64,000 nt of DNA. Origin: Flavobacterium urumqiense. Lineage in GTDB: Bacteria > Bacteroidota > Bacteroidia > Flavobacteriales > Flavobacteriaceae. Both the position numbers and the translations under genes were made by a program. Where the stretch lies: contig NZ_FNVP01000002.1 of NCBI RefSeq assembly GCF_900108015.1, forward strand, positions 248,001 to 312,000. The letters run 5' to 3'. This document shows positions 13,279 through 58,059 of this stretch, piece after piece. How positions within the stretch are numbered: position 1 is the stretch's first letter; each line of letters starts with the position of its first letter. The notes beneath the pieces were generated by a model. It was not told the DNA's origin. It saw only the letters and a program-made list of their open reading frames with translations, and ran no database searches.

Positions 13279-13403
13279 AGCCCAGATTACTTCACTTAAT
13301 GTTTATTTTCATAGGAGCTCAGTGAACTTTGTTTGAAGTGAAAATCCTTTTATCCCGATTTTTAGGGATAAAAGATTGTAACGTATAGCTGGAAATAGCT
13401 CCT
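13279..13403 (-). repeat. Dispersed intergenic element, copy 1 (with internal insertion)
   Basis: Read on the minus strand it begins AGGAGCTATTTCCAGCTATA, runs through ACAATCTTTT to a variable hairpin (ATCCC...GGGAT, 13351-13370), then AAAAGGATTTTCACTT, and ends TCTGGGCTA. The three other copies are at 29718, 53533 and 56631. This copy carries about 50 extra bases between the inner and outer parts of its right arm, bounded by TTCACTT and AAGTGAA. It lies between the convergent genes tadA and rng. Confidence 0.8.
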
Positions 13404-29717: not shown

Positions 29718-29796
29718 GGAGCTATTCCCGTTATTCGCTATATCTTTTTACACGCAAAAAAGCGTGAAAAAAGGATATCGCTGCTACCGGGGCTAA
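29718..29796 (+). repeat. Dispersed intergenic element, copy 2
   Basis: Begins GGAGCTATTCCCGTTATTCG, continues CTATATCTTTTT, has a variable hairpin (CACGC...GCGTG, near 29750-29766), then AAAAGGATATCGCTGCTACC and GGGGCTAA. It is preceded by nine T. Between ahcY and the divergent phosphopantetheinyl transferase gene. Confidence 0.8.
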
Positions 29797-29815
29797 AAAA
29801 CAAAACCTGAACACG

Positions 29816-53513: not shown

Positions 53514-53532
53514 ACTATTATCTCTTGATGTT

Positions 53533-53617
53533 TTAGCCCCGATTAAAGTGGAAATCCTTTTTATTCACCTTTTTTTGGTGAAGAAAAAGATTGCAACGAA
53601 AAGCGGGAAATAGCTCT
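53533..53617 (-). repeat. Dispersed intergenic element, copy 3
   Basis: Read on the minus strand: AGAGCTATTTCCCGCT, then GTTGCAATCTTTT, a variable hairpin (TTCACC...GGTGAA), AAAAAGGATTTCCACTT and ending ATCGGGGCTAA. It lies between the RDD promoter and the terminator of the small gene at 53657. Confidence 0.8.
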
Positions 53618-53782: not shown

Positions 53783-53874
53783 TTTACTTGTTTTGTTAAC
53801 AACTCTATAATCCATTATGACATAAGAGTTGTAGATTAATAATATCAACATTGATATTATCTTAAAAAATAATT

Positions 53875-53905
53875 TTGGAAAGAAGATTCGAATTATATAC
53901 TTTTG
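53875..53905 (+). promoter_or_regulatory. Promoter of a candidate small RNA
   Basis: TTG (53875-53877), 20-base spacer, TACTTTTG (53898-53905) on the plus strand: a full match to the Bacteroidota consensus, with no gene for over 2.5 kb downstream on this strand. Confidence 0.72.
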
Positions 53906-53910
53906 AAGTA

Positions 53911-54027
53911 TATAAAAAGAAGGTGAGGCAACCTCATTATCTTTATAACTTAATTTTTTAAAAGCTTGCTGGCCGTTTTAATTTTACGTTTTCCAAAATA
54001 GGGATATCACAGATGTCCCTTTTTTTA
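53911..54027 (+). ncRNA. Candidate small RNA, about 115 nt, with own promoter and terminator
   Basis: Starts at the predicted TSS and ends at a 9-bp terminator hairpin (54000-54020, CACA-type 3-base loop, seven T). The 5' part folds as a long hairpin: TATA...TATA and AAGA...TCTT outer pairs, an AGG/TTA internal loop, then TGAGG-CAA-CCTCA. No ATG-started ORF of any length is present. I cannot assign it to a known RNA family; Rfam 6S-Flavo and flavo-1 are the first comparisons. Confidence 0.6.
54000..54027 (+). terminator. Rho-independent terminator of the candidate small RNA
   Basis: 9-bp stem AGGGATATC/GATGTCCCT (one wobble) with 3-base loop and T7. Confidence 0.85.
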
Positions 54028-54080: not shown

Positions 54081-54109
54081 ATAAAAGGCCTCCATTAAGA
54101 GGCCTTTAT
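54081..54109 (-). terminator. Terminator of nrdA
   Basis: 9-bp stem AAAGGCCTC/GAGGCCTTT with a 6-base loop and short T-run, 19 bases after the nrdA stop. Confidence 0.8.
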
Positions 54110-56630: not shown

Positions 56631-56736
56631 GGAGCTGTTTCCAGCTATCCATTGCAATCTTTCTAGTCCTGAACTTGTTTCAGGATCCTGAAACAAGTTC
56701 AGGACTAGAAAGGATTTCCATTACTATCTGGGCTAA
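56631..56736 (+). repeat. Dispersed intergenic element, copy 4 (long perfect palindrome)
   Basis: Begins GGAGCTGTTTCCAGCTATCC, then ATTGCAATCTTT, and ends AAAGGATTTCCATTACTATC and TGGGCTAA. The central tip is a perfect inverted repeat of about 54 bases (56659-56712), containing CTAGTCCTGAACTTGTTTC and its complement and centred on GGATCC. It lies between the 93-residue ORF and nrdA inside the nrd transcription unit. A related short hairpin (GCTGAACTTGTTTCAGC) is at 56604-56620. Confidence 0.85.
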
Positions 56737-56788
56737 TATGAATTAGTTGTTTTGTTTTTATGAAATTTAGCTAACAATCAAAATTAAA

Positions 56789-57070
56789 TTATTGTTTATC
56801 GAAAGTGTATATTGTAAAAAAATCATAATCATTGCTTTTAAAACAACGCAATTCTCCTAAAACAGCTCCGTTACTAATGACATCATGAATCGTGTAATTA
56901 CATAAATATTTATTATTTAAATCTACATCTAATGACTCTCTAATTAAATTAAACTGTATGTTTTTATCATTGTTTAATTCACATAACTTTAACTTAGCTT
57001 TCCCAACCTCTTCATAATAATATTTATCATCAAAATTCGAAAAACATTCTATGTTTTCAATATGTTTCAT
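56789..57070 (-). CDS. Unknown 93-residue protein between nrdB and nrdA
   Basis: From the ATG at 57070 it begins MKHIENIECFSNFDDKYYY and ends NDYDFFTIYTFDKQ. It is acidic and soluble, with no signal peptide, no metal motif and nothing I recognise. It starts 11 bases after the nrdB stop, and is followed by a repeat element and then nrdA. A TTG at 57085 would overlap the nrdB stop (57082-57084) and is less likely. A regulator, immunity-type or orphan gene all fit; no function should be assigned. Confidence 0.65.
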   Translation of the reverse strand: MKHIENIECFSNFDDKYYYEEVGKAKLKLCELNNDKNIQFNLIRESLDVDLNNKYLCNYTIHDVISNGAVLGELRCFKSNDYDFFTIYTFDKQ

Positions 57071-57081
57071 AATAGTTAAAA

Positions 57082-58059
57082 TCAAAAATCAGCGTCAAAA
57101 GATATTTTCTGAGCATCCTCATCCGTATTCATAACACCCGCTTTTTGATATTCGGCTACTTTCTTTTCAAAGAAGTTTGTTTTTCCTTGAAGGGAAATCA
57201 TGTCCATAAAATCAAAAGGGTTTGAAGTGTTGTATTCTCGTTCACAACCTAATTCAACCAATAATCTATCAGCAACAAATTCTAAATATTGCGTCATCAA
57301 TACAGCATTCATTCCTATCAAACTCACGGGAAGTGACTCGGTGATAAATTCTCTTTCGATATTTAAAGCATCTACAATAATGCTTCTAATTCTTTCTTTT
57401 GGCACTTTGTTCACCAAGTGGTGGTTGTGTAAATGCACGGCAAAATCACAGTGAACTCCTTCGTCACGAGAAATCAATTCATTAGAAAACGTCAATCCTG
57501 GCATTAATCCACGTTTTTTCAACCAATAAATCGAACAAAATGCTCCCGAAAAGAAAATTCCTTCCACTGCTGCAAAAGCAATCAATCGCTCCGCAAATGA
57601 ATCCGATTCAATCCATTTCAAAGCCCAATCCGCTTTTTTCTTAATTGCAGGAAAAACTTCTAAAGCATTGAACAATTCATCTTTCTCCACTTCATCTTTT
57701 ACATACGTATCAATCAATAACGAATAGGTTTCGCTATGAATGTTTTCCATCATAATTTGAAAACCGTAAAAGAATTTTGCTTCTGCATATTGCACTTCGT
57801 TCACAAAATTTTCAGCCAGATTTTCATTTACGATTCCATCTGAAGCAGCAAAAAATGCCAAAATGTGTTTAACAAAATAACGCTCATCTTCCGAAAGTTT
57901 GTTATTCCAGTCATTTAAATCTTGAGACAAATCAATTTCTTCAGCAGTCCAGAAACTGGCTTCCATACTTTTATAAAATTCCCAAATATCATGGTGTTTG
58001 ATTGGAAAAATTACGAAACGATTTTTATTTTCTTGTAAAATTGGTTCAACTTGTGCCAT
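57082..58059 (-). CDS. nrdB: Ribonucleoside-diphosphate reductase, beta subunit (class Ia)
   Basis: 325 residues from the ATG at 58059 ([14 protein letters not shown]). Ferritin-like di-iron fold; the metal ligands and the tyrosyl-radical site are in [15 protein letters not shown] and [19 protein letters not shown], so the radical Tyr is present. It generates and stores the radical used by NrdA. The frame from 58089 adds no conserved residues. Confidence 0.96.

Follow-up and report, generated by a model that had tools for sequence, protein, structure and literature searches.

Flavo-1 (RF01705) is a short structured RNA of Flavobacteriaceae, and Rfp18 of Flavobacterium psychrophilum is a conserved, strongly structured Flavobacterium sRNA (PMC9723704). 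Small structured RNAs standing beside a single presumed defence protein gene are found in type III ToxIN and in AbiF with its RNA. Among the oldest puzzles in phage defence is Rex exclusion. RexB, the partner of RexA, and its P. putida counterpart are both membrane proteins, and for the latter four transmembrane (TM) segments are predicted (PMC12894663). RexA itself has been placed in one fold superfamily with Iml3, Chl4/CENP-N, and RdgC (PMC11077077). Here we compare these systems with a locus in a 64,000-nt stretch of the Flavobacterium urumqiense genome (hereafter the window), in which positions 53875-54027, judging from sequence and its conservation, very probably form a real RNA gene with a product of ~115 nt and three hairpins.

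The candidate is read from the plus strand in the 684-nt gap between an RDD gene and nrdA. Both neighbors are on the minus strand, and this orientation rules out a 5' UTR of a neighboring gene, as the original prediction had argued. The promoter, 5' hairpin, and terminator described in that prediction were all located in the sequence. The promoter (53875-53905) is of the Bacteroidota type, with TTG at 53875-53877, a 20-nt spacer, and TACTTTTG at 53898-53905. The predicted RNA extends over 53911-54027, its start being estimated about 7 nt past the -7 box. It opens with a 5' hairpin at 53916-53944 (GGTGAGG..CCTCATT) containing an A/A mismatch, continues with a central hairpin at 53947-53990 that has an AT stem and a GC-rich loop, AAGCTTGCTGGCC, and ends with an intrinsic terminator at 54000-54027, in which a 9-bp stem with a 3-nt loop (54000-54020) is followed by T7. 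The outer stem of the central hairpin carries one mismatch in the window copy. The terminator hairpin at the nrdA end (54084-54107, minus strand) is convergent with the RNA and was scored as a hairpin on the plus strand too. On the plus strand the candidate folds at -27.8 kcal/mol (z -3.24 against dinucleotide shuffles), whereas the minus-strand fold is not better than such shuffles (z -0.64). The interval had been described as free of ORFs, and the longest ones inside it indeed have just 12-13 codons with GTG or TTG starts. The promoter motif with 19-21-nt spacing occurs 16 times in the 64 kb, where shuffling predicts 4.2, and four terminator-like sites fall in a 1.1-kb stretch where 0.4 would be expected. 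Because the motif is common in the window, the anatomy alone would not be decisive; the candidate stands above chance because the whole unit of promoter, hairpins, and terminator is conserved, which rules out a chance coincidence of promoter and terminator.

Comparison with known RNAs gave no identity. Neither of the two families put forward in the original prediction, 6S-Flavo and Flavo-1, matches the candidate, and none of the 4227 Rfam families searched does so at gathering score; for 6S-Flavo there was no hit up to E 10. Flavo-1 is akin to the window RNA in being short, structured, and present as one copy in the same gap, but it differs in sequence and structure. The candidate fails the Flavo-1 model, whose sole match in the gap lies at 53531-53614 (plus strand) and had been overlooked. 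Homologues of the window RNA likewise gave no gathering-score match to Rfam, the only hit being a Flavo-1 elsewhere in one of the loci (L116). Rfp18 shares with the window RNA its conservation in Flavobacterium and its strong folding. Going by a covariance-model search, the two do not seem to be the same RNA: no convincing copy of the window RNA was found in F. psychrophilum DSM 3660, where the sole weak match (E 0.009) is an intergenic terminator. A literature search turned up no description of the RNA family, which is also missing from Rfam.

A DNA search of 199 genomes of the genus yielded seven clear homologues, all adjoining nrdA. A covariance model built from eight copies, all from nrdA loci of the genus and including that of the window, was run on 398 Flavobacterium genomes and detected the RNA in 14, all at E <= 7e-14; after these, a gap in score extends to ~1e-3. 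The window copy, itself a training sequence, scored 107.5 bits. All 14 RNAs are single copy in their genomes, adjoin nrdA, and are convergent with it. F. amniphilum (L095) is among the carriers, the RNA is also present in two further named species, F. turcicum (L042) and F. sandaracinum (L033), and at nrdA it is missing from the majority of the window species' close relatives. Covariance-model matches together with loci found in other ways amount to 25 copies, 24 of which adjoin a ribonucleotide-reductase gene. Hairpins and terminator are present in every copy, and the promoter, TTG-N18-21-TAnnTTTG, is kept in 15 of the 16 genus copies; conservation of these elements together was a check proposed in the original prediction. 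The window copy has the full architecture of the family, namely the Bacteroidota promoter, the 5' hairpin, the central hairpin with AT stem and GC-rich loop, a linker, and the terminator. A free-standing RNA gene is therefore strongly supported, the RNA being, on this comparison, a conserved one with its own promoter and terminator. Mean fold z values over the 25 copies were -3.7 for the 5' hairpin and -1.7 for the central hairpin. Covariation had been proposed as a further check. Fixed-column covariation of the 5' hairpin was no better than that of shuffles, and it is uninformative because the stem shifts register. The central stem has compensatory changes between genera, on arms picked by hand. 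As far as searched, the RNA family is restricted to Flavobacteriaceae. Family-level covariance matches at L167-L170 and L173-L183 (except L181, an already-known copy) were rejected as ordinary terminators beside coding genes. Viral sequences searched for patterns of the 5' hairpin and the promoter contained neither, and nine viral matches to the 16-base linker were not the RNA.

In 18 of the 25 copies a divergent protein gene starts just upstream of the RNA promoter. It encodes a protein of ~300 aa with a putative RexA fold in 14 copies, a ~225-aa protein in three, and a CBASS protein in one; no partner was recognized in the remaining seven (the window, G007, G036, G085, G220, F. turcicum, and F. 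sandaracinum). One of the 14 RexA-fold genes is broken (G098), and one pair lies away from nrdA (G333). Within the genus, the gene encodes ~297 aa and occupies this position in 8 of the 14 loci, the broken copy among them. In a search of 396 genus genomes, homologues of at least 52% identity to the ~297-aa protein were confined to the same eight, all RNA-bearing and with the gene adjacent to the RNA. One further homologue of 45% identity was found in G333 (L140), where an RNA of the same architecture is divergent to it and the 18 kb read contain no nrdA. The RNA is thus present at nine of nine genus homologues with at least 45% identity. Furthermore, five more genera of the family carry the protein at E <= 1.5e-70, each with a divergent RNA and an adjoining RNR large-subunit gene; for these five RNAs and that of G333, the genus-trained model gave E values of 4e-6, 1.2e-5, 1.4e-4, 0.002, 0.022, and 0.13. 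From the loci compared, the neighbor of the RNA is not random, and we infer an RNA-partner partnership across the family. The ~297-aa protein matched no family in Pfam, PADLOC, or NCBIfam. It was absent from phages, plasmids, and viral contigs, and phage or plasmid carriers were rejected on this ground. No RexA-like homologue was found in the window genome, and hmmsearch detected no remnant of a decayed partner gene in the RDD-nrdA gap.

The other partners were of different kinds. The ~225-aa protein, which belongs to no known family, is divergent to the RNA beside nrdA in three more genera (L165, L166, and L172); in G468 (L166) its gene is truncated and lies beside a Mutator-type transposase. 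In G389 (L197 909-2917) a divergent CBASS cyclase followed by a TIR-STING effector is inserted beside the sRNA at nrdA. The 3' side of nrdA looks like a defence-gene hotspot.

The usual partner was also compared by predicted structure. A model from 8 sequences (pLDDT 73.6) had lambda RexA as its sole Foldseek match below E 1e-3 (6.2e-5), and a better model from 26 sequences (pLDDT 87.6) had no Foldseek match below 1e-3. By VIA-align, the 26-sequence model matched RexA best (Z 7.9), then Iml3, Chl4/CENP-N, and RdgC; with Z under 8, the RexA match is moderate. Distant homologues of the protein form two-gene operons with a 176-201-aa protein containing four hydrophobic segments; these have no RNA, and the genus-trained model gave no comparable score at their loci. 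Because the fold matches form a coherent set and the second gene of the relatives is of the 4-TM type, a Rex-like family is the best reading of the partner, though not proof. Kiwa was dropped for the two-gene relatives in favor of RexAB on the fold match. By prediction, the usual partner may have a RexA/RdgC-like fold as in the RexAB exclusion of lambda and P. putida (PMC12894663), and its distant relatives are paired with a 4-TM second gene much as RexA is with RexB. In contrast, the RNA-linked proteins have a divergent RNA instead of a 4-TM partner gene, and in the loci read no overlapping TM gene was found beside them, whereas one is present beside the RNA-free relatives. Candidate RexAB-type operons, consisting of a RexA-fold-like and a 4-TM protein, were seen in Flavobacteriaceae at L142, L143, L144-L146, L149, and L156-L163; they occur in F. 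psychrophilum too, and PADLOC and Pfam give them no name. Type III ToxIN and AbiF share with the present locus a small structured RNA beside one presumed defence protein gene, but here the RNA is divergent, lacks tandem repeats, and has its own promoter and terminator, and by Pfam the partner protein resembles neither ToxN nor Abi_2.

We tentatively favor, at somewhat less than even confidence, a reading in which a modular, defence-like cassette has the RNA as its constant part; the RNA would be tied to a divergent partner and, in the window genome, orphaned. In such a small cassette, the RNA would bind or restrain the divergent protein, which most often would have a RexA fold and would probably bind nucleic acid, and it would take the place held by the 4-TM RexB-like partner in related operons. 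The protein gene would have been lost from the window genome, and the RNA left there as an orphan may be idle, protective as a leftover antitoxin, or independently active. The original prediction took an independent regulatory RNA as the simplest reading. Independence holds for the window copy just as one that is partner-less, but the family is normally divergent to a defence-like gene. Since this is so and one pair lies away from nrdA, a usual role tied to a partner is more likely. The seven partner-less copies may nevertheless reflect an RNA acting alone. It is possible, if less probable, that the RNA is an autonomous trans-acting regulatory sRNA resident at nrdA, with defence genes landing at the spot upstream of it and its neighbors being passengers. 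Seven of 25 copies, the window included, keep an intact promoter, RNA, and terminator with no recognized partner, and such an sRNA at a defence hotspot fits them almost as well as an orphaned cassette does. The partners belong to unrelated families, a pattern that would also suit an RNA simply sitting at an insertion hotspot, and nrdA or another RNR gene adjoins nearly every copy. However, an sRNA resident at nrdA would not account for the pair of L140 or for the RNA accompanying all nine genus homologues, and it would be expected to have a conserved seed, yet conservation is lowest in the central hairpin, whose loop frequently occurs as its reverse complement.

This hypervariability is evident between the window and its sister species G007, which are identical at 98% of the promoter, 96% of the terminator, and 94% of the downstream stretch, and at 78% of hairpin 1 and 61% of the central hairpin. 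Among the copies compared, the loop is fast-evolving and invertible: a few types (AAGCTTGCCGGCC-like and GGATCCGACCCC-like) recur, each lying either way round between the same AT-rich arms, and distant lineages again have GGATCCGACCCC or its reverse complement. On an nrdA tree of 22, loop orientation, assigned by eye, changes at least six times without clear clustering (equally low values arose in 77 and 91 of 500 shuffles), and the neighboring cargo changes at least seven times. In the window's own genome, a search for a second loop match gave just chance matches with one mismatch. In plasmid copy-control antisense RNAs, inversion of the loop alters pairing specificity. The inversion seen here resembles theirs, which is a lead and not a test. 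If the RNA is the constant part of a cassette, its fast-changing, inverting loop would carry recognition or compatibility. A central hairpin that evolves far faster than promoter and terminator and flips repeatedly is unusual for an sRNA.

Recurrence of the loop in both orientations across lineages would also suit a strand-symmetric element that acts as DNA, for instance a site of recombination or insertion where cassettes enter beside nrdA, its transcription being incidental, and the exchange of neighboring cargo agrees with this. We consider such a role improbable, because the hairpin is flanked by a conserved full promoter and terminator, hairpins 1 and 3 retain an RNA-like structure, and no recombinase lies beside the hairpin in the loci read. 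Equally doubtful is control in cis, in which the RNA, its promoter, or read-through would tune transcription of the divergent gene or the RNA would pair with the partner mRNA. Divergent promoters within a short shared region would permit it, and many loci have inverted repeats between the RNA promoter and the gene start. In the window, an inverted repeat, ACAACTCT..AGAGTTGT (53799-53832, unstranded), matches, by eye, the place where related loci hold the leader of the divergent gene. However, in 14 RNA-mRNA pairs the duplex energies fell around the mean of the shuffles and showed no consistent signal, so antisense pairing was rejected, and loci lacking the gene still keep the RNA.

A more ambitious proposal, which we regard as rather unlikely, is a new RNA-protein defence module with a constant RNA by ribonucleotide reductase, exchangeable sensors (the RexA-fold protein, the CBASS cyclase, and the 225-aa protein), and loop-set specificity acquired through inversion and allele exchange. 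If the RNA is a working partner of the RexA-fold protein, Rex exclusion would gain an RNA-linked branch with an RNA in RexB's stead; the modest reading still yields an undescribed RNA family of Flavobacteriaceae.

The RDD-nrdA gap also contains a conserved 41-codon ORF, MENPSNNDFYYIFRKCITTRNGRRICKTDGSCFKIRIKKSI (53657-~53780, minus strand), that had been overlooked. Two sister species share this stretch at 93-95% identity, and F. petrolei (L035) and F. fryxellicola (L036) have a comparable ORF close to nrdA, there without the sRNA. A 98-aa ORF with no function assigned is located between nrdA and an nrdB-like gene (56789-57085, minus strand). Four Flavo-1 RNAs occur in the window, at 13321-13399 (plus), 29720-29798 (minus), 53531-53614 (plus), and 56634-56738 (minus), and two of them flank nrdA.
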